The notes below the pieces were generated by a model that ran no database searches, was not told the DNA's origin, and saw nothing but the letters and a program-made list of their open reading frames with translations. Below are positions 2,144 through 19,347 of a DNA stretch of 64,000 nucleotides, piece after piece; position 1 is the stretch's first letter, and every line of letters starts with the position of its first letter. The translations under genes were made by a program, and so were the position numbers. Source of the DNA: Brachybacterium endophyticum (GTDB lineage Bacteria; Actinomycetota; Actinomycetes; Actinomycetales; Dermabacteraceae); NCBI RefSeq assembly GCF_003130585.1, contig NZ_QFKX01000008.1, forward strand, positions 1-64,000. The letters are read 5' to 3'.

Positions 2144-3469
2144 GTGAACACTGCCGTCGTCGCTCTGGGGAAGATCGGGCTGCCGTTGGCCGTCCAGTTC
2201 GCGGAGGCCGGGAACCAGGTCGTCGGGGTGGACGTGAACCCCCGTCAGGTCGAGGCGATCAACGCCGCCCGCGAGCCGTTCCCCGGGGAGGCGCAGCTGG
2301 CCGAGAAGCTCACCGAGCTGGTGCCGACCGGGCGCCTGCGCGCGACCACCGAGTACGCCGAGGCGATCCCCCAGGCCGACACGGTCGTGCTGGTGGTCCC
2401 CCTGTTCGTGGACGAGGAGACCAGCGAGCCGGACTTCGGCTGGATGGACGACGCGACCCGGTCCCTGGCCGAGCACCTCACCCCCGGCACGACCGTCGTC
2501 TACGAGACCACGCTGCCGGTGGGGACCCTGCGGGATCGCTTCACCCCGATGATCGAGGAGATCTCCGGGCTGCAGGAGTCGAAGGACTTCTTCATGGTGT
2601 TCTCCCCGGAGCGGGTGCTGACCGGTCGGGTGTTCGCCGACCTGCGCCGCTACCCCAAGCTGATCGGAGCGATCGGCGAGGAGGGCACGCGGCGGGCGCG
2701 GGAGTTCTACGAGTCGGTGCTGACCTTCGATGCGCGGCCGGACCTCCCCCGCGAGAACGGGGTGTGGGACCTGGGCTCGCCGGAGGCGGCGGAGCTCGCC
2801 AAGCTCGCCGAGACCACCTACCGGGACGTCAACATCGCACTCGCGAACGAGTTCGCCCTCTTCGCCCAGGACAACGGCATCGACGTCTACAAGGTCATCG
2901 AGGCCAGCAACTCCCAGCCCTACTCACACATCCACCAGCCGGGCATCGCGGTGGGCGGGCACTGCATCCCCGTGTACCCGCGCCTGTACCTCTCGACCGA
3001 TCCGCACGCGGAGACGGTGCGGACCGCGCGGGCGCTGAACGCCTCGGTGCCCGGCCGTCTGGTGCAGCGGGCCGAGGAGCTGCTGGGCTCCCTCTCGGGA
3101 CTGCGGGCGGTGGTGCTGGGCGCCTCGTACCGCGCGGGGGTGAAGGAGACCGCGTTCTCCGGGGTCTTCCCCGTGGTCGCCGAGCTGGAGGAGCGCGGCG
3201 CGCAGGTCAGCGTGCAGGATCCCTTCTACACGGACGAGGAGCTGTCCGGGTACGGCTGGGCCGCATGGCACCAGGGGGACCCCGCGGACCTCGTGATCGT
3301 CCAGACCAACCATCCCGAGTACCGCGAATTCGCGCCCGCGGACGTCCCGGGGGTGCGACTGCTGATCGACGGCCGCGACATCACCGACGCGGACGCCTGG
3401 CAGGGCACGCCCCGGCTCGTCCTGGGCGACGGCTCCACCTCGACCCACCGCGCGGCAGCGGAGGACTGA
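2144..3469 (+). CDS. wbpA: Nucleotide-sugar 6-dehydrogenase (WbpA/WecC type)
   Basis: A 441-residue UDP-sugar dehydrogenase that oxidises C6 of a UDP-HexNAc to a uronate with two NAD. The N-terminal Rossmann motif reads ALGKIGLPLA, with Ala in place of the usual first Gly. FSPERVLTGR and the GGHCIPVYP active-site loop (Cys274) are present, and the C-terminal UDP-binding domain carries GASYRAGVKETAFSG. The GTG start has a strong GGGAGGAAG ribosome site. It opens a three-gene run with the DUF2304 and DUF6541-like genes. With WbpB, WbpE, WbpD and WbpI homologues in the same cluster it probably makes UDP-GlcNAcA as the first pathway step, although a UDP-ManNAc dehydrogenase role is not excluded by sequence alone. 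Confidence 0.85.
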   Translation: MNTAVVALGKIGLPLAVQFAEAGNQVVGVDVNPRQVEAINAAREPFPGEAQLAEKLTELVPTGRLRATTEYAEAIPQADTVVLVVPLFVDEETSEPDFGWMDDATRSLAEHLTPGTTVVYETTLPVGTLRDRFTPMIEEISGLQESKDFFMVFSPERVLTGRVFADLRRYPKLIGAIGEEGTRRAREFYESVLTFDARPDLPRENGVWDLGSPEAAELAKLAETTYRDVNIALANEFALFAQDNGIDVYKVIEASNSQPYSHIHQPGIAVGGHCIPVYPRLYLSTDPHAETVRTARALNASVPGRLVQRAEELLGSLSGLRAVVLGASYRAGVKETAFSGVFPVVAELEERGAQVSVQDPFYTDEELSGYGWAAWHQGDPADLVIVQTNHPEYREFAPADVPGVRLLIDGRDITDADAWQGTPRLVLGDGSTSTHRAAAED

Positions 3470-3470
3470 C

Positions 3471-3854
3471 ATGGTCGGGGTGGTGGGCTCGACCCTGGTC
3501 ATCCAGATCCTGCTGATCCTCGGCATCCTGGGGATCACCTTCTGGCTGTTCCGCACCCGCGGTGCCCGCCAGCTCGCCGTGCGGCGACTGCTGATCATGG
3601 GCTTCGCCGTGTTCGCCGTGGCCGCGGTCGCCTTCCCGCGCCTGCTCACCCGCCTCGCGCACCTGGTGGGCGTCGGCCGCGGAGCCGACCTGCTGCTGTA
3701 CGCGACGGTGATCGTCCTGCTGGGGCTGATCGCCCTGCAGGAGGTGCGCGCGAAGAACGAGGAGAAGCGCATCACCCATCTCGCCCGCCGCATCGCCCTG
3801 GACGAGGCCGAGTCGCCGCAGGCGTACCGAGAGCGGACCGACCGCAGCGCATGA
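3471..3854 (+). CDS. DUF2304 family membrane protein
   Basis: A 127-residue protein with three likely membrane helices (about residues 5-22, 38-55 and 68-87) and a charged C-terminal tail. The overall shape matches DUF2304, small membrane proteins commonly encoded beside polyprenyl-phosphate GT2 enzymes. No catalytic motif is visible. A membrane-anchoring or partner role for the GT2 at 1280-1987 is an inference from family context. The start follows the dehydrogenase stop by one base, and the stop overlaps the next start (ATGA), so the genes are translationally coupled. Confidence 0.75.
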   Translation: MVGVVGSTLVIQILLILGILGITFWLFRTRGARQLAVRRLLIMGFAVFAVAAVAFPRLLTRLAHLVGVGRGADLLLYATVIVLLGLIALQEVRAKNEEKRITHLARRIALDEAESPQAYRERTDRSA

Positions 3855-5836
3855 CCGACCTCCTGCTGCTGATCCTCGCCGGCGGCGTGGTGCTCGCCGC
3901 CGCCCTGGTCCCCGGTTTCCTGGCCGTGCGCGTGCTGGGCGGCGGTCGCCTGCTCGCCCTCGCCCTGGCGCCCTCGCTCGGCGCGGCGATCGCCGGGGTG
4001 GGCGCCGTGATCGCGGGCACGGTCGGGGTCCCGTGGTCGCTGGCCACCTTCGGGGTGCTCGCGGCCCTGATGATCGCGATCGGGTACCTCGCGCGCCGCC
4101 TCGGCATGCGTCTGCCCGCGACGGTGCTCGACGTCGAGCCCACGCCCCAGGGTCCCTCGGGCGGGCGTCGCGTCCCCGGCGCTCCCTGGTGGATCGCGGG
4201 CGCGGCCCTGGTGGCGCTGGTCCCGATCGCCTACGCCGCCGGCGGCGCCGACCGCGTCCTGGAGCGCTGGGACACGCTCTACCACCTCTCCGCCCTGGAG
4301 CGGATCCGGGAGACGCACGACGCCTCCTCCCTGGTGATCGGGACGGTCGCGAGCACGACGGGATCACCGAACCCCTACCCCGGCGGGTTCCACGCCCTCG
4401 CCTCCCTGGTGCCGATGGTGCCGATCCCCGTGGTGCTGAACGCCGCCTGCCTGGTGCTCGCCGTGGTGCCCTGGGTGACGGGGATGGCCCTGCTGGCCCG
4501 CGCCCTGTGGCCCGAGGTCGCCTGGGGGCCGTTCGCCGCGAGCGTCACCGGTCTGCTCGCCCCCGCCGCGCCCTGGGACGAGTGGATCCACCTCTCGGCC
4601 ATCCCCAACATGGTCGGCTTCGCGATGCTGCCCGGGGTGACCGCGGCGATCGTCGCCCTGTGGGGTGCCCTGCTGCGGGAGGTGACCGGCGCGGCGCCGG
4701 GGAGCGGCACCGACGTCGGTGCGGCCGCCGGCGCAGGCACGGCGAGTGCGGGAGGGCCCGCGCGGCGTCATCTCGCCTCGGTGCTGGCCCTCCTCGGCGC
4801 CGGTCTGGGACTGGCGCTGATGCACCCGAACGTCGCGGTGAGTGCGCTGTGGCTGATCGCGGCGCTGAGCGCCGTCACCGCGCTCCCCCATCTGCGCTCC
4901 CGTCCACTGCTCGCCGCCGTGCCGATCGCGGCCCTGGTGCCGGTCGCGCTGCTCACCTGGACGCCGCTCGCCTCCGTCGTCACCGGGTTCGCGGGTGGTC
5001 TCCAGGTCCCGTGGTGGTCCGGTGTCGGAGAGCTCCTGCTCGGACTGCTCACCGTGTGGCCGATGGCCCTCGGGGTCGTGCTCGCCCTGCTGTGGTGGCC
5101 CGGGCTGGTCGCCTCCTGGCGCAGCCCGCAGCGCTGGCTGGTGGTGGCCTGGGTGGTGATGGGCGCGCTGTACCTCGATGCCGCCGTGGACTCCCCCCTG
5201 AACCTCTCGACCCTCTTCTACCGCGGTCAGGACCGCCTGGCCATGCCCGTCACGATGCTCACCTGCGTGCTGGTGATCCCTGGTCTGCGCGCCTGGTCGC
5301 GGGTGCTCTCCCCGCACCGCGAGGCCGTGCCGCGGTGGGTGGTCACCGCCCTCGCGCTGCTCGCCGTGGTCGCCGCCGCCAGCTCGGTGCCCACCCGCAT
5401 CGGCAACGCCCAGCAGAACCTCGCCTGGACCTCCGAGGGACGCGGCCGCTTCCTCCAGCAGGACGAGGTCGAGGCGTGGGCGAGGGCGGCCCCCGGGATG
5501 GACCATTCCAAGAAGGTGCTCGCGAGCCCGTTCTCGGGGGCCTCCCACATGTACGCGATCCACGGCCAGCAGGCGTACTTCCCGGTGGCGGGGATGGCCC
5601 TGACCCAGCAGGACCGCTCCCTGCTCTACTCCCTGGCCGGGACCGACGGCGCCGTGCCGCTCGCGACGCAGTGCGGGATGCTCGCCGACGCGGACGTCGG
5701 CTACATCTACAAGGAGTACGAGACCTACTCGTGGTCCTCGACCTTCGACCTCGTCAATCGCGCCGATCCCGCTCTGGGCCACGTCGTCTTCCGCACGGAC
5801 CATTCGGAACTGATCGAGGTGGACTGCTCCGCGTGA
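3851..5836 (+). CDS. Polytopic membrane protein, DUF6541-like; possible GT-C glycosyltransferase or polymerase
   Basis: A 661-residue protein with roughly 12-14 hydrophobic segments and a C-terminal, probably external, domain of about 170 residues. It resembles actinobacterial DUF6541 proteins of unknown function. After the fourth hydrophobic segment the first large loop has RWDTLYHLSALERIRE (Asp141, His145), followed by NPYPGGFHAL. This arrangement recalls the acidic first-loop motif and YPP-type motif of GT-C glycosyltransferases, which use lipid-phosphate sugars outside the membrane. Its place beside a polyprenyl-sugar synthase, DUF2304 and a sugar dehydrogenase supports a polymer-assembly role, but the enzyme activity is inferred. 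The start overlaps the preceding stop. Confidence 0.65.
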   Translation: MTDLLLLILAGGVVLAAALVPGFLAVRVLGGGRLLALALAPSLGAAIAGVGAVIAGTVGVPWSLATFGVLAALMIAIGYLARRLGMRLPATVLDVEPTPQGPSGGRRVPGAPWWIAGAALVALVPIAYAAGGADRVLERWDTLYHLSALERIRETHDASSLVIGTVASTTGSPNPYPGGFHALASLVPMVPIPVVLNAACLVLAVVPWVTGMALLARALWPEVAWGPFAASVTGLLAPAAPWDEWIHLSAIPNMVGFAMLPGVTAAIVALWGALLREVTGAAPGSGTDVGAAAGAGTASAGGPARRHLASVLALLGAGLGLALMHPNVAVSALWLIAALSAVTALPHLRSRPLLAAVPIAALVPVALLTWTPLASVVTGFAGGLQVPWWSGVGELLLGLLTVWPMALGVVLALLWWPGLVASWRSPQRWLVVAWVVMGALYLDAAVDSPLNLSTLFYRGQDRLAMPVTMLTCVLVIPGLRAWSRVLSPHREAVPRWVVTALALLAVVAAASSVPTRIGNAQQNLAWTSEGRGRFLQQDEVEAWARAAPGMDHSKKVLASPFSGASHMYAIHGQQAYFPVAGMALTQQDRSLLYSLAGTDGAVPLATQCGMLADADVGYIYKEYETYSWSSTFDLVNRADPALGHVVFRTDHSELIEVDCSA

Positions 5837-5840
5837 GCGC

Positions 5841-7013
5841 TCAGCCCCGACGCACCACCTCGAGGACGGCGGAGGCCGCCTTCTGCGCGGCACCTTGCAG
5901 GGATGCGTTCTGGAACGTCCACGCTCGCAGGTGGTCGGTCTCCGGTGCGCCCTCGCCGTCCAGGGCACCGAGCATCGCGCGGGCGACGGCTCCCGGCTCG
6001 TAGGCGCTCGCCCAGCCCAGGCCCTCGCCCTGCACCCGCTCGGAGGCGGCCCCCTCACCGGCATGGATCACCGGCGTCCCCGACGCGGTCGCGGCGTAGA
6101 TCTTGGTGGGGAGGGCGAACTCGTAGCCGAGGCCCGGGGTGATCGAGCTGAGCCCGGCGACGGCGCCGCGCAGCATCCGCGACATCTCGGCGGGGGCCAG
6201 CCGTCCACGGAACTCGATGCCCTCGATGCCCTCGGCCTCGACGGTCGCCGCCAGAGCCTCCTTGCCGCTGCCCTCGCTGAAGAACAGCAGGCGGACCCCG
6301 GGGCGCTCGGCGCGCACCCGGGCGAAGGCCTCGACGAAGACGTCGGCCCCCTGCCACTCGGAGACCGTGCCGCCGTAGACGAAGTAGGGCCCCAGCTCCG
6401 TCTCCTCCTCGGGCCCGGGCCCGTCGGGCGTGAAGACGTCCGTGTCGATGCCGTTGCCGACCATCCGCAGCGAGGGACGGCGGCCGATCAGCGCGGCGAC
6501 CCTGTCGTCCACCCCCGTCGAGATCGTGAGCACCCTCGCGGCGCGCTTCCAGGTGGTGGTCTCCATCCACCGCACCGCGGCGCGGACCGGGGCCGGCACA
6601 CCCTGGACGCTCTCGGTCGCATCCGACCAGACGTCGGCCGCGTAGAACACGGTGGGGACGCCGCGCAGCACGCCCAGGACCGTCGCGACGATGCCGGTGG
6701 TCGGCGGCGGCTCGGCGACGATCACGTCGGGCCGGCGCCGCAACAGCAGACGCAGTGCGAGGGGCACGTCGAAGCTCATGTAGCTGAGGTAGCCGCGCAC
6801 CTGCTGCTGGTGGTCGCGCTTGACGGGGAACCGGGAGACGGACCGCACCCGGTCCCTCCCCGCGACCCCGCGCGGAGGGCGCGTGGTCAGCACGGTGACC
6901 TCGGCGCCGGTCTCCTCGAGCGCGCGCACCAGGGCCTCGTTGCGGAAGGCGGCCGCGACCGCCTCGGGGGTGAAGACGCGGCTGGCGAGGACCACGTGGG
7001 GCCGGCGGCTCAT
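5841..7013 (-). CDS. Glycosyltransferase family 4, WbuB/FnlC-like
   Basis: A 390-residue GT-B fold retaining glycosyltransferase. The N-terminal domain starts with VVLASRVFTPEAVAAAF and contains the AEPPPTTG and YAADVWSDATE stretches seen in WbuB-type enzymes. The C-terminal domain has YGGTVSEWQGADVFVEAF and the donor-binding region LSSITPGLGYEFALPTKIYAATASG followed by GTPVI. WbuB proteins move amino sugars in O-antigen assembly; the substrate here is not known. The start at 7013 overlaps the stop of the upstream epimerase gene (ATGA), so the pair is one unit. Confidence 0.8.
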   Translation of the reverse strand: MSRRPHVVLASRVFTPEAVAAAFRNEALVRALEETGAEVTVLTTRPPRGVAGRDRVRSVSRFPVKRDHQQQVRGYLSYMSFDVPLALRLLLRRRPDVIVAEPPPTTGIVATVLGVLRGVPTVFYAADVWSDATESVQGVPAPVRAAVRWMETTTWKRAARVLTISTGVDDRVAALIGRRPSLRMVGNGIDTDVFTPDGPGPEEETELGPYFVYGGTVSEWQGADVFVEAFARVRAERPGVRLLFFSEGSGKEALAATVEAEGIEGIEFRGRLAPAEMSRMLRGAVAGLSSITPGLGYEFALPTKIYAATASGTPVIHAGEGAASERVQGEGLGWASAYEPGAVARAMLGALDGEGAPETDHLRAWTFQNASLQGAAQKAASAVLEVVRRG

Positions 7014-8077
7014 CGGCTGCGCTCGCGCAGGGCGTCGATCACGCGCTCGGAGGCGTGCCCGTCGCCGTAGTGCTCGGAGCGGCGGGCGATCGGTCGTGGT
7101 CGCTCGAGGGCCGCTGCGATGCCGCTCGGGTCGGGCACCAGCTGGTTCCAGCCGTCCGCGAGGGTCTCCACCCATTCGGTCTCGGTGCGCACGGTCACGC
7201 ACGGTGCTCCCAGCAAGTAGGCCTCCTTCTGGAGTCCGCCGGAATCGGTGACCACGGCGCGGGAACGGCGGACGGCGGCGACGAGATCGGGGTACGCGAG
7301 CGGATCGCCCACGTGCACCGACCCTCGTTCGAGCGTGATCCCGGCCTCCTGGGCCTTCGCGACCAGGCGCGGATGCGCGAACAGGGCGACGGGCAGCGGC
7401 GCCTGCTGCAGGGAGGCGAGGAGCGCGGCGAGCCGCTCGGGGTCGTCGGTGTTGTCGGCGCGGTGGATGGTGGCGACCGCGTAGTCCTCGGCGGGGTCGA
7501 TGCCCGCCGGAAGCATCGGCGTCCGGTCTGCGACGGCATCGGCCACGCGCAGGCAGACGTCGGTCATCACGTCCCCGACCACCAGGGTGCGGGTCTCGAG
7601 CCCCTCGTCGGCCAGGTGACCGCGGGCGACCTCGGTGGGGGCCAGCAGCAGATCGGCTGCGTGGTCGGTGAGCACGCGGTTGTGCTCCTCGGGCATGCGC
7701 CGGTTGAAGGAGCGCAGGCCCGCCTCGAGGTGGGCGACCTTCACGTGCATCTTCACCGCGGCGAGGGTGCCGGCGAGGGTGGAGTTGGTGTCGCCGTAGA
7801 CGAGCACCCAGTCGGGCCGGTGGGTCTCGAGGACCTCGTCCAGCGCCGTCAGCATCGCGCCGGTCTGGCGGCCGTGGCTGCCCGAGCCCGCGCCGAGGTT
7901 CACGTCGGGCGCGGGGATGCGCAGATCGGCGAAGAAGACGTCGCTCATCGCCGCGTCGTAGTGCTGCCCGGTGTGGACGATGACGTGCTCGACGTCCTCG
8001 TACTGCGCGGCGGCGTCGGCGACCGCGGCGAGCTTGACGAACTGGGGGCGCGCGCCCACCACCGACAGGATCTTCAT
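7010..8077 (-). CDS. wbpI: Non-hydrolysing UDP-GlcNAc-type 2-epimerase, WbpI/WlbD-like
   Basis: A 355-residue 2-epimerase of the WecB/MnaA superfamily, which inverts C2 of a UDP-HexNAc through elimination and re-addition of UDP. Motifs include YGDTNSTLAG, HLEAGLRSFNRRMPEEHNR, TIHRADNTDDPERL and VTDSGGLQKEA. The LRSFN-MPEE wording is what I recall for WbpI/WlbD enzymes acting on UDP-GlcNAc(3NAc)A, whereas MnaA-type enzymes usually differ at this place. With the WbpA, B, D and E homologues present it probably makes UDP-ManNAc(3NAc)A. It is divergent from the glycosyltransferase gene at 8158. Confidence 0.85.
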   Translation of the reverse strand: MKILSVVGARPQFVKLAAVADAAAQYEDVEHVIVHTGQHYDAAMSDVFFADLRIPAPDVNLGAGSGSHGRQTGAMLTALDEVLETHRPDWVLVYGDTNSTLAGTLAAVKMHVKVAHLEAGLRSFNRRMPEEHNRVLTDHAADLLLAPTEVARGHLADEGLETRTLVVGDVMTDVCLRVADAVADRTPMLPAGIDPAEDYAVATIHRADNTDDPERLAALLASLQQAPLPVALFAHPRLVAKAQEAGITLERGSVHVGDPLAYPDLVAAVRRSRAVVTDSGGLQKEAYLLGAPCVTVRTETEWVETLADGWNQLVPDPSGIAAALERPRPIARRSEHYGDGHASERVIDALRERSR

Positions 8078-8117
8078 GGGGCGCGTCCTCCTGGAGGGCT
8101 CGGGGCATGTGCGCAGG

Positions 8118-8123: not shown

Positions 8124-8157
8124 GTGCCCGACCCACCCTCCTCGTCCCAGGAGCGCC

Positions 8158-9540
8158 ATGCCCGAGCCTGCCCCCGCCCCGCGCGTCGCGGTGCTCGTGC
8201 ACAACGACGCCGCGAACGACTCGCGGGTCCTCAAGGAGTCCGCGTCACTGCGCGGCGCCGGGATGCGCGTGCGGATCATCGCCGTCGAGCGGCGGCTGAA
8301 GGGACACGCGGCCGGGATCACGGAGCTGGCCGAGCACCTGGACCTCCAGCGCGTCCCCGAGTTCGCTCTCGAACGGATCGCACCGCGGCTCACCCGGCTG
8401 ACGCGGCGTCCTGCCGGCGACGGGACGCCGGCGCCGGCCCCCGCCGCCGGGGGCGGTGCCGATCGACCTGTCCCTCCCCCGTCGCGGATCCGCGACGTGG
8501 CCGTGCGGACGGGCATGCGGATCGCCGCGGACCTCGGTCGGCGCGCCTACCGCACGGTCGAGCTGGGCACCTGGTGGTGGCGCTCGGCCCGGGCCGGGCA
8601 CGCCTTCGCGCCCCAGGTCGTGCACGCCAACGACACCAATGCCCTGGTGCCGGCCCTCGCGATCCAGCTGCTGGGCAGGCAGGCAGGGCGCGACGTGCGC
8701 CTGGTCCTGGATTCCCACGAGCTGTGGCGCCACCGCAACGTGCCCGAGCACAGGCTGCTCGCCCCGCTCCTGGACGCCCTCGTCGAGCATCTGGCCGTGC
8801 CCCGGGCCGACGCCGTCATGACGGTCTCCCCCTCGATCGCCGCCTGGCTGCAGCGCACCTACGCACTGCCGGAGCCGCCGGTCCTGGTGCGCAACGTTCC
8901 GGTCGCCGGTCCCGTCCCGGAGCGCTCCCAGGGGGTTCTGCGCGAGCGGGCGGGGCTCTCGTCGTCGGACCGGGTGATCGCCTACGGCGGACGGATCACG
9001 ACCTCCCGCGGGATCGAGGAGACCCTCGCCGCACTCCCCCATCTCCCGCCCGACGTGCACCTGGTGCTGCTGGGCTACGGCGAGGAGGACTACCTCGCCC
9101 GCGTGCAAGAGGCCGCGCGTGCCGCCGGGGTCACAGGTCGCCTGCACCTGGTGGGTGCGGTCGCCCCCGACCAGGTCTCGACGGCGCTGGCCGACGGCGA
9201 CGTCGCCGTCGTGCACGTGCAGCCGGTGTGCCTGTCCTACCGCTACGCGCTGCCCAACAAGCTGTTCGAGTCGATCCGGGCGGGCCTGCCGATCGCCGCG
9301 GCCGACCTGCCGGACATGCGGGCCGTCGTCGAGGAGCTCGGCGTGGGCGAGGTCTTCGCGAGCGAGGACCCGCGCGAGCTCGCCGCCGCCCTGCTGCGGA
9401 TCCTCGAGCACCCCGAGACCTACCGCGCGCGCGCCCGCGCCGTCGCCCCCGAGCTGACCTGGGAGCACGAGGCCGAGCGGATGCTCGAGGCCTATCGACG
9501 GGCGATGGCCGGCACCCGAGGGACGGAGGATCCGGCATGA
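8158..9540 (+). CDS. Glycosyltransferase family 4
   Basis: A 460-residue GT-B glycosyltransferase. The N-terminal domain carries VAVLVHNDAANDSRVLKE, then a Pro/Ala-rich linker (about residues 80-100) and VVHANDTNALVPALA. The C-terminal donor domain has YGGRITTSRGIEET, HLVLLGYGEED and YALPNKLFESIRAGLPI. An ATG further upstream at 8107 is possible, but the ATG at 8158 is favoured because CAGGAG precedes it and the family similarity begins there. It leads a three-gene coupled run with the genes at 9537 and 10658. Its HANDTNAL and LPNKLFE segments resemble those in the gene at 11798-12922, suggesting related enzymes. The substrate is unknown. Confidence 0.85.
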   Translation: MPEPAPAPRVAVLVHNDAANDSRVLKESASLRGAGMRVRIIAVERRLKGHAAGITELAEHLDLQRVPEFALERIAPRLTRLTRRPAGDGTPAPAPAAGGGADRPVPPPSRIRDVAVRTGMRIAADLGRRAYRTVELGTWWWRSARAGHAFAPQVVHANDTNALVPALAIQLLGRQAGRDVRLVLDSHELWRHRNVPEHRLLAPLLDALVEHLAVPRADAVMTVSPSIAAWLQRTYALPEPPVLVRNVPVAGPVPERSQGVLRERAGLSSSDRVIAYGGRITTSRGIEETLAALPHLPPDVHLVLLGYGEEDYLARVQEAARAAGVTGRLHLVGAVAPDQVSTALADGDVAVVHVQPVCLSYRYALPNKLFESIRAGLPIAAADLPDMRAVVEELGVGEVFASEDPRELAAALLRILEHPETYRARARAVAPELTWEHEAERMLEAYRRAMAGTRGTEDPA

Positions 9541-10661
9541 GGGCGACGCTGGTGACCACCTGGTTCCCGACCGCGATCGCGCCCTCGCGCGGCTCCTTCG
9601 TGGCGCGCGACGCGCTCGCGATCGCCGAGCACGCCGAGGTGCGCCTGGTGCACCTGGTGCCCCCGGCCGACGACGACGGCACCCGGCGCCTGGTCCACGA
9701 GGGCATCGACGTGCTGCGGGTCCCGATGGACCCCCGTCGGCCCGACCAGATCCTGCGCGCCTCCCGGACGCTCGCTGCAGCCATGGCGGACGCGGACGTG
9801 GTCCACTCGATGGCCTTCTCGACGCTGCTGCCCCTCGCCCTGCGCCGTCCGCGCGCCCCGTGGCTGCATACCGAGCACTGGTCGGCCCTGACCACGCCGG
9901 GGACGCTGTCCGCGCCGGCCCGTCTCGCCCTGCCCGCGCTCACACGCCTGCTGGCCGGCCCGGACCGCGCGACGGCGGTCTGCGAGTACCTCGCCGAGCC
10001 GCTGCGGCGAGCGCGCGGGCACCGCCCCACCGACGTGGTGCCCTGCGTCGTCGACCCGGGCCCGCTGGTCCCGCGACGCGCCCGGAGCGACCGCACCCTG
10101 CGCCTGGTCTCCACCGGCGGGCTCATCGACCGCAAGGACCCGCTGACCGCCGTGCGCACGCTCGCCGTGCTCGCGGCGCGCGGTGTCGACGTGCACCTCG
10201 AGTGGCTCGGCGAGGGCCCGCTGCGCGAGCGCACCCTCACCCTGGCCCGCGAGCTGCAGGTCGCACATCGACTCTCCCTGCCGGGGACGGCGAGCCCCGA
10301 GGGGGTGCGGGAGGCCCTCGGCCGCGCCGACGTGTTCTTCGGACCCACCCGGGCCGACAACTTCTTCGTCTCGGCCGCCGAGGCGATCGTCGCCGGGCGC
10401 CCCGTGGTGCTCGGCGCGACCGGAGGCCAGGGCGAGTACGTCGAGGAGTCCGTGGGCGCGCTGATCGACGCGCAGGACCCGGAGCGGTACGCCACCGCGA
10501 TCACCGACCTCGACGCCCGCACGCGGGAGCTCAGCAGCGAGCAGATCGCCGCGACCATCGGCGAGCGCTTCTCCTCCCGGGCCGTCGGAGCGGCCTACGC
10601 CGCCCAGTACACGCGCCTGCTCGACGAGGCGGAGGGCGAGCGCGCGGAGGGCGAGCGATGA
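9537..10661 (+). CDS. Glycosyltransferase family 4
   Basis: A 374-residue retaining glycosyltransferase. It begins TLVTTWFPTAIAPSRGSFVARDA, typical of the GT4 acceptor domain. HTEHWSALTTPG and TAVCEYLAEPLRR follow. The donor domain has STGGLIDRKDP, EWLGEGPLRE and FFGPTRADNFFVSAAEAIVAGRPVV; the E-x-x-x-AGRPVV part contacts the nucleotide sugar. Both ends overlap neighbours through ATGA, so it is co-translated with the glycosyltransferase genes on either side. Sugar and linkage cannot be told from sequence. Confidence 0.85.
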   Translation: MRATLVTTWFPTAIAPSRGSFVARDALAIAEHAEVRLVHLVPPADDDGTRRLVHEGIDVLRVPMDPRRPDQILRASRTLAAAMADADVVHSMAFSTLLPLALRRPRAPWLHTEHWSALTTPGTLSAPARLALPALTRLLAGPDRATAVCEYLAEPLRRARGHRPTDVVPCVVDPGPLVPRRARSDRTLRLVSTGGLIDRKDPLTAVRTLAVLAARGVDVHLEWLGEGPLRERTLTLARELQVAHRLSLPGTASPEGVREALGRADVFFGPTRADNFFVSAAEAIVAGRPVVLGATGGQGEYVEESVGALIDAQDPERYATAITDLDARTRELSSEQIAATIGERFSSRAVGAAYAAQYTRLLDEAEGERAEGER

Positions 10662-11797: not shown

Positions 11798-12922
11798 TCA
11801 TTCCCCCAGGATCGCCGCGACGGCCTTCTCCCACGTCCGGACCTGCCGTTCGGCGCTGAGCGCGGACGCGGCCGCGTCGGACGCCTGCTTCCACCGGTCG
11901 ATGGTCTCGTCCGTCAGGCCCGCGATCTGCAGATGCATCGCCGCCGCGTCGGCAGCGGGCAGCACCTCGCCGATCCCGTGCTCGCGCACCAGCTCGGCCA
12001 TGTCCGGGGAGGGGCCGACGATCACGCCCGTGCGCGCCTGCACGGCCTCGAACAGCTTGTTGGGGAGGGAGTGGGTCAGGTTGAAGGTCGTGTTCGGGAA
12101 GACCACGAGGGAGACGTCGTACTCGGCGACGGTGTCCACGAGCTGCGGGTAGGGCACCGGGTCGCGCAGCGCGACACCGGGGACCTCCTCGGCCAGAGCC
12201 CTCAGGCGCTCGATGTACCCGGGCTCGCTGGGCATCAGCATGAGGTCGAGCCTCGCGTGCCCCTCGAGTCCGCGCATCGCCTCGATCATCGCCTCGAGGT
12301 GGCGGTTGGCGCGGGCGACGCCCGTGTGGAGGAGCCGGATCGGGGCGCCCGTCGGCCGCACGGGCAGGTCCCGCTCGGCGGAGGCGTTGGTGACGACCTC
12401 GACCTCGATGCCGAAACGGGCGGAGTACTCGCGGGCGAGCCCCGGGGAGACCGTGGTCGCCGAGGCGACCCGCGGCAGGCACGTGCGGCACAGCCAGCGC
12501 TGGTAGGGCGCGACGAACCAGCGCCAGGAGCGCTGGTGCTCCTTCTCGCGGGGCGCGTACTCGTGCAGGTCGGCGTGCACGCCCCGTCGGGGCCGGAGCC
12601 AGAGGGCGAGCGGCAGGGTGTTGGTGTCGTTGGCGAGCACCGCGTCCATCGTGCCCACGCGGTCGGCGAGGAGGTCACGGGCGGCGCGGACGGCGCTCAT
12701 CCCCCAGTAGGCGCCGCGGAAGCGACGGGTGAGCAGGTGCTGCTTGGAGCTGGGCCAGGCGCGCGTGCCCTCGGGGATCTCCACGTGCTCCACGTCCGGG
12801 TGCGGGCGCGGCCCGAAGCCGACCGTCGTCACCCGGTACCGCGGGGCGAAGAGGTCGATCTGCCGCTGCACCCGCGGATCGCTCTCCAGACGGGAGAAGG
12901 ACAGGATCAGCAGCCTGCTCAT
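11798..12922 (-). CDS. Glycosyltransferase family 4
   Basis: A 374-residue GT-B glycosyltransferase starting MSRLLILSFSRLESDPRVQRQI, the opening typical of GT4 enzymes. AVLANDTNTLPLALWLR, DLHEYAPREKEHQRSWRWF and the donor-domain motif FNLTHSLPNKLFEAVQARTGVIVGP (shown in part) are present. The similarity of its NDTN and LPNKLFE blocks to the gene at 8158 suggests a shared ancestor. The start overlaps the stop of the ABC exporter by four bases, so export and transfer functions are co-expressed. The substrate is unknown. Confidence 0.8.
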   Translation of the reverse strand: MSRLLILSFSRLESDPRVQRQIDLFAPRYRVTTVGFGPRPHPDVEHVEIPEGTRAWPSSKQHLLTRRFRGAYWGMSAVRAARDLLADRVGTMDAVLANDTNTLPLALWLRPRRGVHADLHEYAPREKEHQRSWRWFVAPYQRWLCRTCLPRVASATTVSPGLAREYSARFGIEVEVVTNASAERDLPVRPTGAPIRLLHTGVARANRHLEAMIEAMRGLEGHARLDLMLMPSEPGYIERLRALAEEVPGVALRDPVPYPQLVDTVAEYDVSLVVFPNTTFNLTHSLPNKLFEAVQARTGVIVGPSPDMAELVREHGIGEVLPAADAAAMHLQIAGLTDETIDRWKQASDAAASALSAERQVRTWEKAVAAILGE

Positions 12923-14772
12923 CGCTCGCCCACTCCCTGCTCCCCCGTCTCCTGCTGCGCGTCCGAGCGCTGCACGCCGCCTCCGAGACCTGCGAGCGCC
13001 GCCTGCTCGGCGAAGGCGGGCACGGCCGCGACGACCTCCTGGAAGCTGCCCTGGGCGAGCACCTGGCCCTCCTGCATGTAGAACACGACGTCGCAGTGCT
13101 GGATGGTCGCCAGGCGGTGGGCGATGGTGATGGTGGTGACCTGCTCGCCGAGCTCGCGGATGCCCGCAGTGACGGCTGCCTCGGTGGCGGTGTCCAGCGC
13201 GCTCGTTGCCTCGTCGAGCACGAGCACGCGGGGTTCGGCGTACAGGCCGCGGGCGATGCCGAGCCGCTGGCGCTGACCGCCGGAGAGGGTCGTGCCCCGC
13301 TCGCCGACGCGGCCGTGGATCCCCTCGGGTCTCTCCTCGATGACCTCCAGCAGCTGGGCGCGCTGCAGGGCCTCGCGCACCCGGTCCTCGTCCACGTCCG
13401 CGGGATCCCACGTGAGCGCCACGTTCTCCCCCACGGAGACGTCGAACAGGGCGACCTCCTGGGGGACGTAGCCGACCTGGGAGCGCCACTGCCGCATGAC
13501 GGTGGTGATGTCCTGGCCGCCCACCAGGATCCGGCCGCGGCTCGGCGCCAGCAGGCCCAGCAGCAGGTCGACCATCGTGGACTTCCCGGCCCCGGAGGTC
13601 CCCACGAAGGCGACCGAGGACCCCGCCGGGATCCGCAGGGAGACGTCCCGGACGGCGGGCTCCTCGCGGCTGGGGTAGACGAAGGAGACGTCCTCGAGGA
13701 CGATGTCGCGCCGCTCGTCGGCCCCGAGCTGCGCGGAGTCGGGGCTCTCGGTGCGGGTGACGGCCTCGCGGGCCTGCTCGATGTCGTCGATGATGTAGTC
13801 GGAGAACGCGGCGTTGGTGAGGATGCGGTTCTGGGTGGACTGGAAGCGGGTCAGCGAGGGCACCAGACGGAAGCCCGCGACGCCGAACAGCGCGACCGAG
13901 GACAGGGCGCCCTGCGGCCCGCCCGAGAGGTAGCCGACCCCGCCGACGACGACGAAGCCGCCCACCAGCCCCGCCTCGAGCACGAAGCGCGGCATCTGGT
14001 TGTAGTACTGGGCGAAGGCGCGGGTCTGGGAGGCCAGATCGCGGCGGTCGGCGACGATCTGCTCGACCTGCTTCTCGTTCCCCTTCAGGGTGATCTCCTT
14101 GAGGGAGGAGAGCACCTCGCCGAGCAGGCGCACCACGCGGATCGAGTTGTCGCGGTTCACGGCGCCGTTCCTCACCGCCAGCGGCGAGATCACGCGGGAC
14201 ATGACCAGGGCGACCAGGCCCAGGTAGAGCGTGGTCGCGAGCGCGAGCTTCCAGTCCATGACGAACAGGCCCACGGTGATCACCGCGATCGTCGCGAACT
14301 CGCTGACCACGGTCATCGACGGCATCAGGACGTTGGCGACGACGGCCGCGACGCCCGAGTCGACCATCCGGATGATCTCCTGGCTGGAGCGGGAGGTGCG
14401 GTCGACCCAGGGGGCCGACATGTAGGAGCGGAACAGCATCTGGCCGATGGCGACCTCGTGCTTGGCGAAGCGTTTGGTGGCCTCCCGGATCGCCAGCAGG
14501 TTCAGCGCGCTCTTGACGATGGTGAGGACGACGAAGACGCCGACCAGAGCGACGATCTGCCCGAAGCCCACGAAGCGCCAGTGCACGATCGGGATCGTCA
14601 CCACGTCCTTGCCGCCGATCAGTCCCTGCAGGGCGACGGCCATAGCGCCGAGGGCGACCACGTCCAGTAGCGCGAGCAGGCTCATGATGATCGCGAAGGT
14701 CCACAGGAACCGGCGGGCGTCCCGCGGGAGAACGGACAGCGTGCGCAGCACGGTCTGGACGGTGCGCTTCAC
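12919..14772 (-). CDS. ABC exporter, fused membrane and ATPase domains (PglK-like flippase type)
   Basis: A 617-residue half-transporter that should dimerise. The first 330 residues hold about six membrane helices. The ATPase domain follows, with Walker A GTSGAGKST near residue 395, Q-loop YVPQEVALF, signature LSGGQRQR, Walker B VLVLDEATSALD and the H-loop AHRLAT. The layout matches lipid-linked oligosaccharide flippases such as PglK and lipid A exporters. Inside a glycosyltransferase cluster, moving an undecaprenyl-linked sugar unit across the membrane is the likely job. The GTG start has GAAGGAAGG upstream. A TAGCGT box at 14860-14865 (minus strand) may be its -10 element. Confidence 0.85.
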   Translation of the reverse strand: MKRTVQTVLRTLSVLPRDARRFLWTFAIIMSLLALLDVVALGAMAVALQGLIGGKDVVTIPIVHWRFVGFGQIVALVGVFVVLTIVKSALNLLAIREATKRFAKHEVAIGQMLFRSYMSAPWVDRTSRSSQEIIRMVDSGVAAVVANVLMPSMTVVSEFATIAVITVGLFVMDWKLALATTLYLGLVALVMSRVISPLAVRNGAVNRDNSIRVVRLLGEVLSSLKEITLKGNEKQVEQIVADRRDLASQTRAFAQYYNQMPRFVLEAGLVGGFVVVGGVGYLSGGPQGALSSVALFGVAGFRLVPSLTRFQSTQNRILTNAAFSDYIIDDIEQAREAVTRTESPDSAQLGADERRDIVLEDVSFVYPSREEPAVRDVSLRIPAGSSVAFVGTSGAGKSTMVDLLLGLLAPSRGRILVGGQDITTVMRQWRSQVGYVPQEVALFDVSVGENVALTWDPADVDEDRVREALQRAQLLEVIEERPEGIHGRVGERGTTLSGGQRQRLGIARGLYAEPRVLVLDEATSALDTATEAAVTAGIRELGEQVTTITIAHRLATIQHCDVVFYMQEGQVLAQGSFQEVVAAVPAFAEQAALAGLGGGVQRSDAQQETGEQGVGER

Positions 14773-14952
14773 AGGGGCCTTCCTTCGAGGGTGGTGCGAT
14801 CACGACCGGGTCCGACGTCGGCCGACGGGACCTCGGCGCGGGATGCGCACGGTGCGCTCACGCTACCGTGCCGAGCCCCGCAGAACGCGCTCACCGGGGC
14901 GCGTGCGGCGCTCGGCACAGCGACGATCGCTCTGCGGCCACCGCTGCTGCGC

Positions 14953-16482
14953 TCAGGCCTGTGGCGCGGACAGCGCTGCGACGTAGCGCTCGGCGACGAC
15001 GTCCGGGGAGCGGCGGCGCACCACCCAGTCGCGTCCGGCGCGAGCGTGCTCGGCGTGCGAGCCCGTCCGCTGGATGCCCAGCACGCGAGCCGTGGCGGCC
15101 TCGAGGTCCTCGACCACCCAGTCCTCCGGGTAGATCAGTCGCGCGCCGCCGTAGTCGCGGACGTCCGGCCAGTCGCGCACGATCGGCACGCACCCCGCTG
15201 CCAGTCCCTCCATCACGGCCTCGTGGACGGCCTCGACCAGGGAGGAGGAGATGATCCAGCCGGCCCCGGCGAGCAGCTGCGGGACGTCGTCCCGGCTGCC
15301 CAGGATCTCGACGGCGCCCTCGTCGAATCCGGCGAGGCGCTCGCGCACGGCTCGCTCGTGGAAGCTGTCCTCGTCGGCCGAGGCCGGCAGCGGCGGGCCG
15401 ATCAGCAGCAGACGGTAGCGCGGGTCCTCGGCGCGCAGGCGCGCGAGCAGGTCGAGGGTGAACAGCACGTCCTTGACCGGGCGCACCCAGCCCACCTGGG
15501 CGAGCAGGTGCGGGTCGCCGTGGCCGTCCGGCTCCTCCCCCAGCCCGCGGCCGAGGAAGTTGTCGACCTCGATGATCTCGCCGGCGCTCGCGAGATTCCC
15601 CGTGACGTGCTCGAGCAGCGAGCGCACGGGCGGGGAGACGAACAGGACGCGGTCCACGACCGGGAACACGGTGAGCAGCGGGAAGGGCGTGTAGACCTCG
15701 AAGCGGTGGAACCGGGCGACGGTGCGGCGCGGCATCGTCTGCAGCATCGAGACCCAGGTGAGGACGTGGTGCCCCCATTCGACCAGGACCGTGTCAGCCC
15801 ACTCGAACTGTTCGCGCAACGACTCGGGGGTGGGCAGGCGCTCCCCGGTCAGCGCAAGGCGCAGGCGTGCGCTCAGCACCCGTTCGCGGGTGGGGCGCTG
15901 ATCGGCGGGGAGGTCGTCGACCTCGAAGCGGCGGACGGCGAAGCCGCGGGAGCCGAGAGCCTCGATCACGGGCTCGGCGAACGTCCAGTTGCGCTGGGCG
16001 ATCACGAGCAGTCGGGTCGGCTCGCCCGACCTCGACCTCGACCCGGCGCCCGCCTGCTCGCCGCCCCCGTGTCCTCGGGGTGCGGGACGCTGCGGGCCCT
16101 GGTCCGTCTTCGGCAGGGCGAACAGCTCCCGGCCCACGGCGCTGTCGCGGAACGGAGCGAGGAACGCCGAGGGGTCGGCGGTCAGCGGTGAGGCCGACTC
16201 GGAGTAGTGGAGCGTGGGGTGGTAGGCGATCCGCAGTGCCTTGTCGAACCACAGCAGGCTCGCGGTGTGGTCGCCGGAGCGGAACAGGGCCGAGGAGCGC
16301 TCGAGCTCCTCCCGCATCTCGCGGTCCCGACCGGCGGGGTCCTCGCCGCCGTCCAGGCGGGCGACCAGGTCGAGGTAGCGGGCGCGGGCCCCGGCCGCCC
16401 CGGGCAGCACGCGGCCGGCCCGGGCACCGATGCGCAGGGCATGGCCTCGGGCCGCGCGCACGACCCCACGGGCACTGCTCAC
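14953..16482 (-). CDS. Glycosyltransferase, GT4-like with divergent N-terminal half
   Basis: A 509-residue protein. The C-terminal half is GT-B like: LAQVGWVRPVKDVLFTLDLL, YRLLLIGPPLP, ISSSLVEAVHEAVMEGLAAG and CVPIVRDWPDVRDYGG, which fits a donor-binding domain. The N-terminal half has the sequence LLVIAQRNWTFAEPVIEAL and a Gly/Arg-rich linker near residues 130-155. No signal peptide is seen. The start overlaps the stop of the wbpB-like gene (ATGA), linking it to the sugar-nucleotide genes. It may transfer the sugar they make; this is inferred from position. Confidence 0.75.
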   Translation of the reverse strand: MSSARGVVRAARGHALRIGARAGRVLPGAAGARARYLDLVARLDGGEDPAGRDREMREELERSSALFRSGDHTASLLWFDKALRIAYHPTLHYSESASPLTADPSAFLAPFRDSAVGRELFALPKTDQGPQRPAPRGHGGGEQAGAGSRSRSGEPTRLLVIAQRNWTFAEPVIEALGSRGFAVRRFEVDDLPADQRPTRERVLSARLRLALTGERLPTPESLREQFEWADTVLVEWGHHVLTWVSMLQTMPRRTVARFHRFEVYTPFPLLTVFPVVDRVLFVSPPVRSLLEHVTGNLASAGEIIEVDNFLGRGLGEEPDGHGDPHLLAQVGWVRPVKDVLFTLDLLARLRAEDPRYRLLLIGPPLPASADEDSFHERAVRERLAGFDEGAVEILGSRDDVPQLLAGAGWIISSSLVEAVHEAVMEGLAAGCVPIVRDWPDVRDYGGARLIYPEDWVVEDLEAATARVLGIQRTGSHAEHARAGRDWVVRRRSPDVVAERYVAALSAPQA

Positions 16483-17522
16483 GGCAGGTGCACCTGGTCC
16501 ACCGGGACCATGCGTCCCTCCTGGGCCGAGCGCAGCACCGCTTCGACGGCGCGGACCGTCTGCAGCCCCTCGCGCATGGTGACGATGTTGGACGCATCGC
16601 CGTTCACGGCATCGCGGAAGGCGGCGTGCTCGGTGGCGAGCGGTTCCGTGCGCCGCAGCGAGTAGCGCACCATGTCGCCCTCGCTGACACCGCGGAAGGA
16701 GGCCATCGACTCCCAGAGGTTGGTGGTGGCCTCGGCGTTGGCGTGGAAGCTGAGGTCGGCGTTGACGGTGTCGGCGACCAGCGCCCCCTTCTCGCCGGTG
16801 ACCACGGTGGTGCGTTCCTTGAACGGGGAGAGCCAGTTGACCAGGTGGCTGGTGACGGTGCCGTTGCGCAGCCGTCCGGAGACGCTGACCATGTCCTCGT
16901 CCTCGCGTCCCGAGCGGCGTGTCGAGAAGGCGGCGACGTCGGAGAAGTCGCTGTCGGCGACCCAGGCGGTGAGATCGAGGTCGTGGGTCGCCAGATCCTT
17001 GACGACGCCGACGTCGGCGATGCGGGCGGGGAACCCGCCCTGGCGGCGCGTGGAGATCTGGTAGATCTCCCCGAGCTGTCCGTCCGCGAGCCGGCGGCGC
17101 ATCTCCTGCAGGGCCGGGTTGTAGCGCTCGATGTAGCCCACGGCGCCGACCAGTCCGGCGCGCTCGTAGACGGTGGCGATCTCCTCGGCCTCGTCGATGT
17201 CGAAGGCGAGGGGCTTCTCCACCAGGCAGTGCACGCCCGCCTCGGCGAAGGCCAGGGCGACGTCGCGATGGAACTGGGTGGGCACGGCGATCACCGCGTA
17301 GTCGATGCCCGCCGCGATCAGGGCCGCGGCGTCGGGCAGGACGTCGTAACCGGCGGCGGCCCCGTGCGGGTCGCCCTGCGGATCGGCGACGGCGACCAGC
17401 TCGACGCCCTCGAGGGAGCGCAGGTTGCGGGCGTGGTGACGGCCCATCATGCCCAGGCCGATGAGGCCCGCCCGCAGCGGCCGGCCGCCGGTTGCTGCCG
17501 TCGCGGATCCCGTGGCGCTCAT
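16479..17522 (-). CDS. wbpB: Gfo/Idh/MocA oxidoreductase, WbpB-like UDP-GlcNAcA 3-dehydrogenase
   Basis: A 347-residue NAD(P)-dependent sugar oxidoreductase. The Rossmann motif is LIGLGMMGRHHARNL, the family motif is VEKPLAF with its catalytic Lys, and GYIERYNPA and KDLATHDLDL (DxxxH) lie in the substrate domain. WbpB/WlbA oxidises C3 of UDP-GlcNAcA so that an aminotransferase can add the 3-amino group. The wbpE-like aminotransferase gene lies directly upstream with an ATGA overlap, which strongly supports this role. Other Gfo/Idh/MocA enzymes have similar motifs, so the exact substrate relies on context. Confidence 0.85.
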   Translation of the reverse strand: MSATGSATAATGGRPLRAGLIGLGMMGRHHARNLRSLEGVELVAVADPQGDPHGAAAGYDVLPDAAALIAAGIDYAVIAVPTQFHRDVALAFAEAGVHCLVEKPLAFDIDEAEEIATVYERAGLVGAVGYIERYNPALQEMRRRLADGQLGEIYQISTRRQGGFPARIADVGVVKDLATHDLDLTAWVADSDFSDVAAFSTRRSGREDEDMVSVSGRLRNGTVTSHLVNWLSPFKERTTVVTGEKGALVADTVNADLSFHANAEATTNLWESMASFRGVSEGDMVRYSLRRTEPLATEHAAFRDAVNGDASNIVTMREGLQTVRAVEAVLRSAQEGRMVPVDQVHLP

Positions 17523-18637
17523 GCTCCGCCTCCCGCGCTCGCGACCGTGCGCACCGCGGTGACGATCCGTTCGAGGTCCGCCTCGCCCAGGCTGGGATGG
17601 ACGGGCAGGGAGAGCACCTCGCGGGTCAGTCTCTCGGTCACCGGCAGGTCCAGGTCGAGCTCGTAGGAGGGCAGGCGGTGCACGGGGGTCGGGTAGTAGA
17701 CCCCGCAGCCCACGCCGTGCTCCTCGCGCAGGGCGGTGGCGAACGCGTCGCGCTGCGCGGCCGATGCGCCGTCCACGCGGATCGTGTACTGGTGGTAGAC
17801 GTGCTCGGCGCCCTCCCGCACGACGGGGGTCACCACCCCGTCGAGCCCGGCGAGCCCCTCGTCCAGACGGGCGGCGTTGCGGCGACGCTCCTCGGTCCAG
17901 CCGGCGAGCCGGGTCAGCTGCACCCGCCCGATTGCGGCGTGCAGATCGGTCATGCGGTTGTTGAAGCCCGCGACCTCGTTGGCGTACTGGACCTCCATGC
18001 CCTGGTTCCGCAGCAGCTTCACGCCACGGGCGAGGTCCTCGTCCGCGCAGGCGACCATGCCGCCCTCGCCGCTGGTCATGTTCTTCGTGGGGTACAGGGA
18101 GAACATGCCGAAACGGCCGAAGGTGCCGACCTGCCGCCCCTGCCAGGTGGCGCCGTGGGCCTGGGCGGCGTCCTCGGCGATCCACAGGCCGTGACGGTCG
18201 GCGATCCTCACCAGGGTGTCGATCTCCGCGGGGTGGCCGTAGAGGTGCACGGGCTGGATGCCCACGGTGCGCTCGGTGATCGCGGCCTCGACGGCGGCGG
18301 GGTCCAGGCAGAACGTCTCGGGGTCCACGTCGACGAACACGGGGGTCGCGCCGCTGACCGCGACCGCGTTGGCGGTGGCGGCGAAGGTGAAGGAGGGGAC
18401 GATGACCTCGTCCCCGGGGCCGAGACCCAGGGCGAGCATCCCCAGGTGCTGGCCGGAGGTCCCGGAGTTCACCGCGACCGTGGGGCGGCCCGCCGCGAGC
18501 TGCACGGCGAACTCCTCCTCGAAGGCGGCGACCTCCGGGCCCTGGGCCACCATGCCGCTGCGCAGCACGCGGTCCACGGCCTCGCGCTCCTGGTCACCGA
18601 TGATCGGCTTGGCGGCGGGGATCATCGGCTGGTCCAT
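17519..18637 (-). CDS. wbpE: DegT/DnrJ/EryC1/StrS sugar aminotransferase, WbpE-like
   Basis: A 372-residue PLP-dependent sugar aminotransferase. It has AVNSGTSGQHLGM, SFTFAATANAV, EDAAQAHGA and the PLP-lysine motif LYPTKNMTSGEGG (Lys185). WbpE transfers an amino group from glutamate to C3 of UDP-3-keto-GlcNAcA. The ATG at 18637 is preferred because GACGAGG precedes it; a second ATG at 18625 would give an exact ATGA overlap with the acetyltransferase gene and cannot be ruled out. It lies between the acetyltransferase and wbpB-like genes in one coupled run. Confidence 0.85.
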   Translation of the reverse strand: MDQPMIPAAKPIIGDQEREAVDRVLRSGMVAQGPEVAAFEEEFAVQLAAGRPTVAVNSGTSGQHLGMLALGLGPGDEVIVPSFTFAATANAVAVSGATPVFVDVDPETFCLDPAAVEAAITERTVGIQPVHLYGHPAEIDTLVRIADRHGLWIAEDAAQAHGATWQGRQVGTFGRFGMFSLYPTKNMTSGEGGMVACADEDLARGVKLLRNQGMEVQYANEVAGFNNRMTDLHAAIGRVQLTRLAGWTEERRRNAARLDEGLAGLDGVVTPVVREGAEHVYHQYTIRVDGASAAQRDAFATALREEHGVGCGVYYPTPVHRLPSYELDLDLPVTERLTREVLSLPVHPSLGEADLERIVTAVRTVASAGGGA

Positions 18638-19347
18638 GCGCCCTCGTCCTCTCCCTGGTCGTGGATGTCCATGTCGGTCGCGCCCCCGGCGGGGCTGGGG
18701 ACGGCATCGGAGGCCAGGCGCAGGCCCCCGGTGGCCTCGTCGGCCACGTACCACTCGCCGGTGGACGGGCACACCCACGAGTCGGTGCCGTCCGCGGCGG
18801 GCTGGAGCTTCTCCCCCGAGCGGCCGACCCAGGCGAGGCGGCGCGCGGGGACCCCGGCGACGAGCGCGTACGGGGGGACGTCGCGGGTCACGGTGGAGCC
18901 CGCCGCGACCATCGCCCATTCGCCGATGGTCACCGGGGCGACGCAGACGGCGCGCGCGCCGATCGACGCACCCTGTCGGCAGGTCACGCCCACGGGCTCC
19001 CAGTCCTCGGCCGACTTCGGGCTGAGGTCGGGGTTCACGGCGCGCGGACGGTGGTCGTTGGTGAACACCGCGGCCGGCCCCACGAAGACGCCCTCGGCCA
19101 GTTCGGCCGGCTCGTAGACCAGCGCGTAGTTCTGCACCTTGCAGCCGTCGCCCATGTGCACACCGGTGCCGACGTAGGCGCCCCGGCCGACGATGCAGTC
19201 GCTGCCGAGCTCGGCGTCCTCCCGGACCTGGGCGAGGTGCCAGATGGAGCTGCCGGCACCGATGCGGGCGGTGTCCGCGACGTCGGCGGAGTCGACGATG
19301 CGCACGCCGTCTCGGGGCACGCGGGCGGACGGGGTGCTCTCGTTCAT
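18622..19347 (-). CDS. wbpD: Left-handed beta-helix N-acetyltransferase, WbpD/WlbB-like
   Basis: A 241-residue hexapeptide-repeat acyltransferase. Residues 20-170 show repeats of the type IGAGSSIWH and VGRGAYVGTGVHMGDG. The signature FTNDHRPRAVNPDL and the PPYALVAGVPARRL end of the helix match WbpD/WlbB, which acetylates the 3-amino group of UDP-GlcNAc3NA using acetyl-CoA. A C-terminal extension of about 60 residues contains WVCPSTGEWY, reminiscent of the degenerate metal-ribbon tail in some homologues. A TAGGTT box sits seven bases before the ATG, suggesting a leaderless operon start for wbpD-wbpE-wbpB and the downstream glycosyltransferase. Confidence 0.85.
   Translation of the reverse strand: MNESTPSARVPRDGVRIVDSADVADTARIGAGSSIWHLAQVREDAELGSDCIVGRGAYVGTGVHMGDGCKVQNYALVYEPAELAEGVFVGPAAVFTNDHRPRAVNPDLSPKSAEDWEPVGVTCRQGASIGARAVCVAPVTIGEWAMVAAGSTVTRDVPPYALVAGVPARRLAWVGRSGEKLQPAADGTDSWVCPSTGEWYVADEATGGLRLASDAVPSPAGGATDMDIHDQGEDEGAWTSR

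Follow-up and report, generated by a model that had tools for sequence, protein, structure and literature searches.

The sugar acid 2,3-diacetamido-mannuronic acid (ManNAc3NAcA) was shown by nuclear magnetic resonance in a teichuronic-acid-like polymer of Streptomyces griseus (PMC13274773, 2025). According to the accessible text of that report, the polymer contains both ManNAc3NAcA and its epimer 2,3-diacetamido-glucuronic acid (GlcNAc3NAcA), a five-enzyme route similar to that of Pseudomonas aeruginosa is predicted, and antibacterial umbrella particles use the ManNAc3NAcA polymer as their receptor. Polymers of this kind act as surface epitopes. In the same accessible text, the oxidases of S. 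griseus are not stated to be non-Wbp orthologues. The accessible text of PMC6113628 makes no link between Brachybacterium and teichuronic acid. Here, we analyzed positions 1 to 64,000 of contig NZ_QFKX01000008.1 of Brachybacterium endophyticum (assembly GCF_003130585.1; this whole stretch of 64,000 nucleotides is called the window). It carries five genes, labelled A, B, E, D and I below, for a predicted route from uridine diphosphate N-acetylglucosamine (UDP-GlcNAc) to UDP-ManNAc3NAcA. The genome is 3.55 Mb in size, and the G+C content of the window is 67-75% in 2-kb steps.

From the enzyme classes, family placement, conserved residues and co-occurrence seen in the sequences, we infer the product, a polymer and its attachment. 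Very probably, the five enzymes make up a dedicated pathway that converts UDP-GlcNAc to UDP-ManNAc3NAcA, and neighboring genes would build the sugar into an acidic teichuronic-acid-like surface polymer (probability about 0.87). In this pathway, B would oxidize C3, E would transaminate C3, D would carry out the N-acetylation, A would oxidize C6, and I would epimerize C2. Glycosyltransferases, an ABC transporter and a LytR-CpsA-Psr (LCP) protein would then assemble the sugar into the polymer.

The five genes and the 2-epimerase

Gene A (2144-3469, plus strand, 441 aa) encodes a UDP-sugar 6-dehydrogenase (TIGR03026, 297 bits, above the cut-off). The other four genes lie on the minus strand. Gene I (7010-8077, 355 aa) encodes a predicted WbpI-type UDP-GlcNAc3NAcA 2-epimerase, assigned by structure matches, residues and tree. 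Gene D (18622-19347, 241 aa) encodes a hexapeptide N-acetyltransferase, apparently of the WbpD/WlbB type, with a CPxTGExY tail. Gene E (17519-18637, 372 aa) encodes a DegT-family C3 aminotransferase with Lys185 in the motif YPTKN, and gene B (16479-17522, 347 aa) a Gfo/Idh/MocA 3-dehydrogenase most akin to GnnA and enzymes of archaea. D and E overlap by 16 bases, E and B by 4 bases, and the D-E-B run is located 27 bases downstream of purE. An earlier sequence-only reading of the window had placed five such enzymes at these coordinates, in three transcription units. All five reading frames proved intact there, and family searches agreed with each of the five classes. Judged by strand alone, the division into three units (A; I; D-E-B) is reasonable. 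A codon-position GC scan marked all five frames as coding and would set the start of B at 17450. ARAGORN called a tRNA-Gly inside B (17013-17096), probably a false call; it was not listed by Rfam at gathering scores.

The nearest named relatives of I are Brachybacterium proteins (76-85% identity). NCBIfam labels I 'wecB', above the cut-off, and plasmid records give the same name to WbpI-type epimerases, so database names do not separate WbpI from WecB. The solved UDP-GlcNAc3NAcA 2-epimerases matched I at 356-359 bits, compared with 242 bits for the best other entry. In the profile search, these enzymes scored 447-450 bits versus 328 for the best other. BLAST gave 338 bits for the Thermus thermophilus enzyme versus 117 for Escherichia coli WecB. 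The tree grouped the clade of I with the T. thermophilus enzyme (99/92); E. coli WecB and the second WecB of this genome stood elsewhere.

The accessible text of PMC10622841 describes three substrate-adapting changes in the T. thermophilus UDP-GlcNAc3NAcA 2-epimerase, among them a Trp for the Arg with which WecB binds the C3' hydroxyl. Epimerase I lacks this Arg and has Trp302 instead. Every I-clade member with a letter at the C3' position (100/100) has Trp, and all 18 of the other epimerases from actinobacteria have Arg. Tyr94 was present in 100 of 101 I-clade members and replaced by Phe in one. The motif LRSFN-xx-MPEE, which had led the sequence-only reading to WbpI, is present in I, and it fits the six commonest forms, which cover 100 of the 101 I-clade loci (window included). 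LRSFD or LRSGD stands at this site in 17/18 other epimerases. This makes the motif a fair marker of the WbpI-type clade within actinobacteria, as far as the aligned sequences tell. Taken together, I is classed by sequence as a WbpI-type epimerase, outside WecB. The residue and profile tests are a simple way of telling WbpI from WecB.

A separate group of 17 WecB-like actinobacterial epimerase loci (L055-L071) was observed. Tyr (15/17) and Ala (15/17) occur there as in WbpI, and Arg and Asn occupy two other sites in 17/17. Another 6-dehydrogenase, 34-37% identical to A, lies near 14 of these 17 loci. These epimerases may be UDP-GlcNAcA 2-epimerases that make ManNAcA.

Two dehydrogenases, their partners and the order of steps

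Residues Cys274 (GGHC), Lys220 and Glu156 of A, which we take to be catalytic, were invariant in 19 aligned sequences. The structure model of A had a mean predicted local distance difference test (pLDDT) score of 76.6, below 50 around Cys274. Identity was 29% to Pseudomonas WbpA, 33% to WecC, and 37-39% to Priestia and haloarchaeal enzymes, and the tree joined A to the latter two groups (100/97 and 99/95). A is not a WbpA orthologue: it lies on the opposite side of a 99/96 branch from WbpA, represented by one annotated WbpA and one TviB, a long branch. It is not in the WecC clade either, being in a separate clade (100/100). We assign A on its sequence to a module-specific actinobacterial clade that is neither WbpA/TviB nor WecC.

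B gave no significant BLAST match to WbpB of Pseudomonas frederiksbergensis (E 0.5), and its matches to Deinococcus and Sulfitobacter 3-dehydrogenases were short and weak. Its best NCBIfam model was NF040723 (archaeal UDP-GlcNAc 3-dehydrogenase), at 204 bits short of the 450-bit cut-off. B is 31-35% identical to haloarchaeal 3-dehydrogenases. Identity to GnnA (7bvj) was 33% over 213 residues and 26-28% across the whole chain. The sequence search gave 112 bits for GnnA and 79 bits for Bordetella pertussis WlbA. With the structure model of B (pLDDT 89), Foldseek ranked GnnA first (E 1e-27; WlbA, 2e-23). VIA-align placed 1,5-anhydrofructose reductases in the lead (Z 39.0), GnnA eighth (37.1) and WlbA at 36.4, a tie with GnnA, so that the fold alone decides nothing. 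Among the 50 structure matches listed for B, no entry was titled WbpB, an absence that is no test. The B tree carried a split from WbpB of 100/100; the grouping of the haloarchaeal enzymes with GnnA, present as a fragment only, had a support of 50/28. By these comparisons, B appears GnnA-like and is not recognisably WbpB. In Brachybacterium sp. Z12 (L083), B is split over two overlapping frames (contig 1, approximately 2336021-2337003), which reflects either a disrupted gene or an error of sequencing.

E was 48% identical to the Halobaculum enzyme, 45% to Haloferax, 43% to Deinococcus and 37% to Pseudomonas. In the tree, a 100/99 branch set it together with the haloarchaeal enzymes, yet not far from WbpE. 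Lys185, presumably the pyridoxal phosphate lysine, was invariant in 20 aligned sequences. Among solved structures, D best matched 3mqg at 141 bits (residues 20-204, through the C-terminal CPxTGExY tail), and the next match scored 70. The entry 3mqg, named in the database as a lipopolysaccharide biosynthesis acetyltransferase, is WlbB. The tree placed D with WbpD against the haloarchaeal D (100/100), with 1 of 10 actinobacterial rows outside the main clade. D is thus assigned by sequence to the WbpD/WlbB type, tail included. The sequence-only reading had called the pathway WbpA-B-E-D-I type. This name holds for I (WbpI-type) and D (WbpD-type) and fails for B, which has no significant match to WbpB, and for A, which falls outside WbpA/TviB.

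The order of the steps was considered in view of these placements. An order beginning at C3 (B, E and D, followed by A and finally I) has about the same chance as the Pseudomonas order with A first. The former is favored by the resemblance of B to GnnA and archaeal enzymes, which bear the name UDP-GlcNAc 3-dehydrogenase. Uronate intermediates are favored, and the C3-first order disfavored, because D and I are Wbp-type, and the known substrates of that type are uronates. We therefore give an even chance to the possibility that, regardless of descent, the enzymes follow the Pseudomonas order, in which A oxidizes C6 before B, E, D and I act in turn. It agrees with the Wbp-type D and I and with the P. 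aeruginosa-like route predicted for S. griseus in the accessible text of PMC13274773. B is likewise related to B. pertussis WlbA, a protein crystallised together with UDP-GlcNAcA, as the bit scores and Z values above indicate. The lack of a significant match between B and Pseudomonas WbpB, the 29% identity of A to WbpA, and the trees separating A and B from their Wbp counterparts argue against the Pseudomonas order.

Slightly short of even odds, in our estimate, is a fuller version of the C3-first order, in which actinobacteria have a second, mosaic route. A GnnA/archaeal-type 3-dehydrogenase would lead to a C3 amino group on UDP-GlcNAc, the acid would be formed late by a dedicated UDP-GlcNAc3NAc 6-dehydrogenase, and a WbpI-type epimerase with a site remodelled by Leu for Ala would follow. 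If the oxidation steps differ from those in Pseudomonas, the actinobacterial route would escape annotation that relies on similarity to WbpA and WbpB, and the two dehydrogenases and their substrates form a small, testable enzymology problem.

Conservation of the gene set and its surroundings

The co-occurrence of the genes was determined in 118 genomes of the class, with cut-offs of at least 57% (I clade), 48% (A) and 49% (B) identity. The I clade was found in 21 genomes, A in 28 and B in 31. B was present in 21/21 I-clade genomes and in 28/28 A genomes (Fisher p = 5e-16 for I-B and 4e-24 for A-B, kinship ignored). A and B occurred without the I clade in seven genomes, and B alone in three. 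The I count was made without G050 (51%, query 144-354 only) and with G098 counted in two pieces; the B count was made without G013 and G016 (38-39%). In the 17 tabulated genomes with a WecB-like epimerase (43-50%), B was found in two, both of which also have the I clade.

Among 53 chosen genomes, B was found in 20/20 sampled I-clade genomes and in 0/15 WecB-like genomes at 50% or above (one at 39%). D was found in 19/20 I-clade genomes (the genome without it is 78% complete, and two of the 19 hits are cut short) and, at 60% or above, in 0/15 WecB-like genomes (one at 42%). The genome of the window and all 17 genomes reached through named loci have both B and D. At the locus level, all five genes lie within the fetched stretch in 60 of 101 I-clade loci, and E and B are contiguous in 71/71. 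In 12/12 genomes of Brachybacterium or Dermabacter, B, judged by its coordinates, follows on from the fetched stretch within 1.6 kb. The 17 WecB-like loci all lack B, E and D (E 1e-10); the 45% filter of the contiguity count retained 10 of them. One of the 101 loci is the window, and at least four contigs are represented twice, so locus counts are not species counts. The five-gene set recurs across Actinomycetota far above chance.

Several observations weigh against the reading of the five genes as one dedicated route. D and E are contiguous in only 41 of 63 loci. For five loci of Micromonosporaceae, the closest counterpart of D reaches just 47-52% identity; both of the aligned Micromonosporaceae matches lack the CPxTGExY tail, and the tree puts one outside the D clade. 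Long-branch warnings attach to the B tree, the E tree and the larger A tree. The absences in the 118-genome profile rest on a first look, with at most 17 or 14 candidates scored per genome. By identity, A is nearer to WecC than to WbpA. Leu16 occupies, in 101/101 I-clade members, the position of Ala18 of T. thermophilus, and seven reference WbpI-like epimerases carry Ala there. According to the accessible text of PMC10622841, Leu or Met at this position is typical of UDP-GlcNAc enzymes.

The last two points, together with the 'wecB' call on I, would suit a WecB/WecC-like pair of A and I making UDP-ManNAcA, with D-E-B making an unrelated 3-amino sugar. We consider this very improbable. Neither I nor A was found without B in the 118 genomes, Trp302 stands where WecB has Arg, and the genome has a separate WecB and WecC-like gene, approximately 16 kb apart on contig 10. 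The trees hold I and A apart from WecB and WecC, so the phylogenetic outcome that the sequence-only reading had named as damaging, both enzymes grouping with WecB and WecC only, did not occur, though A is closer to WecC in identity. On residues, trees and profile, the WecB/WecC reading of A and I was rejected. The claim of a dedicated five-step UDP-ManNAc3NAcA route in a surface-polysaccharide cluster is supported at the sequence level.

A different possibility is that part of the UDP-GlcNAc3NAcA is consumed before epimerization, in which case the polymer would receive both epimers. The seven of 118 genomes with A and B but without the I clade are consistent with it, and these may use GlcNAc3NAcA only. 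The S. griseus polymer with both sugars (PMC13274773, accessible text) and a Halobaculum roseum locus described below point the same way. In the window, I is intact and its active-site residues are conserved. We regard this partial use as rather unlikely here, and it would only add to the dedicated route.

Across 84 further I-clade loci, counted with duplicates, A was kept in 72, B in 71, E in 69 and D in 62, and the glycosyltransferase, transporter and LCP genes of the window in 0-6 each. Since the enzymes are kept and the neighbors are not, the five genes appear to be one sugar module that serves probably different polymers.

The neighbors were scanned with Pfam for genes up to 45260, without the gene at 29304-29999. 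The LCP protein (365-1264, plus strand; PF03816, 150 bits) likely attaches the polymer to peptidoglycan. It is followed by a family 2 glycosyltransferase (1280-1987, minus strand; PF00535). Directly downstream of A, on the plus strand, lie genes for a DUF2304 protein (3471-3854; PF10066) and a DUF6541 protein of 661 aa (3851-5836; PF20176, 251 bits). A family 4 glycosyltransferase (5841-7013, minus strand; PF13579, PF13692) overlaps I by 4 bases and, from its position, is a candidate transferase of the sugar. Two more family 4 glycosyltransferases (8191-9540 and 9537-10661) and, inside the glycosyltransferase run, a protein of 377 aa with no match in Pfam (10658-11791) are on the plus strand; by eye, the latter resembles a family 2 glycosyltransferase. 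Downstream of D-E-B on the same minus strand are a glycosyltransferase (14953-16410), an ABC transporter of 617 aa (12919-14772) and another glycosyltransferase (11798-12922). Elsewhere in the genome, at approximately 283-331 kb of contig 10, the second WecB and the WecC-like 6-dehydrogenase share a stretch of less than 50 kb with three TagF-like matches, a separate wall-polymer region.

Comparison with known systems

The wbp-type cluster on the P. frederiksbergensis plasmid is annotated as wbpA followed in a row by 3-dehydrogenase, acetyltransferase, aminotransferase and epimerase genes, with relatives in Deinococcus and Sulfitobacter. The window shares 51% identity with it in I, 40% in D and 37% in E. 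The gene order there is A-B-D-E-I; in the window, D-E-B stand together with A and I apart. In addition, the 3-dehydrogenase of the window is not recognisably WbpB, and its 6-dehydrogenase belongs to another clade. Because two of the five enzymes come from other families, the window holds a variant of the characterised Wbp pathway.

Haloferax mediterranei plasmid pHME505 carries a five-gene D-E-B-A-I operon (L225, 8267-13483), and Halobaculum roseum (L226) has D-E-B-A, with I not found within the 20 kb fetched. The H. mediterranei operon shares the D-E-B order with the window, with identities of 45% in E, 37% in A, 31% in B and 48% in I. Its D is another hexapeptide acetyltransferase, 34% identical and without the CPxTGExY tail. 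The T. thermophilus UDP-GlcNAc3NAcA 2-epimerase (8sxv) is 52% identical to I and shares its active-site Trp and Tyr, but has Ala18 where I has Leu16. B matches GnnA best in sequence and in Foldseek E-value, though not in VIA-align. From these sequence comparisons, the actinobacterial set looks like a mosaic, in which A, B and E are nearer to the haloarchaeal enzymes, D is Wbp-type, and I is about equally near to all.

A further parallel lies within the actinobacteria. As far as the accessible text of PMC13274773 goes, the Utr (teichuronic-acid) locus of S. griseus has the same five enzyme kinds with adjacent glycosyltransferases, as in the window; the glycosyltransferases themselves and the gene order differ. 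The Utr type of S. griseus also includes a UtrC-like transferase that joins the polymer to wall teichoic acid. In the Streptomyces loci compared, S. griseus itself not among them, A was 61-62% and B 56-58% identical to the window. The route is not new for actinobacteria, and the window is a further case of the actinobacterial kind reported in S. griseus.

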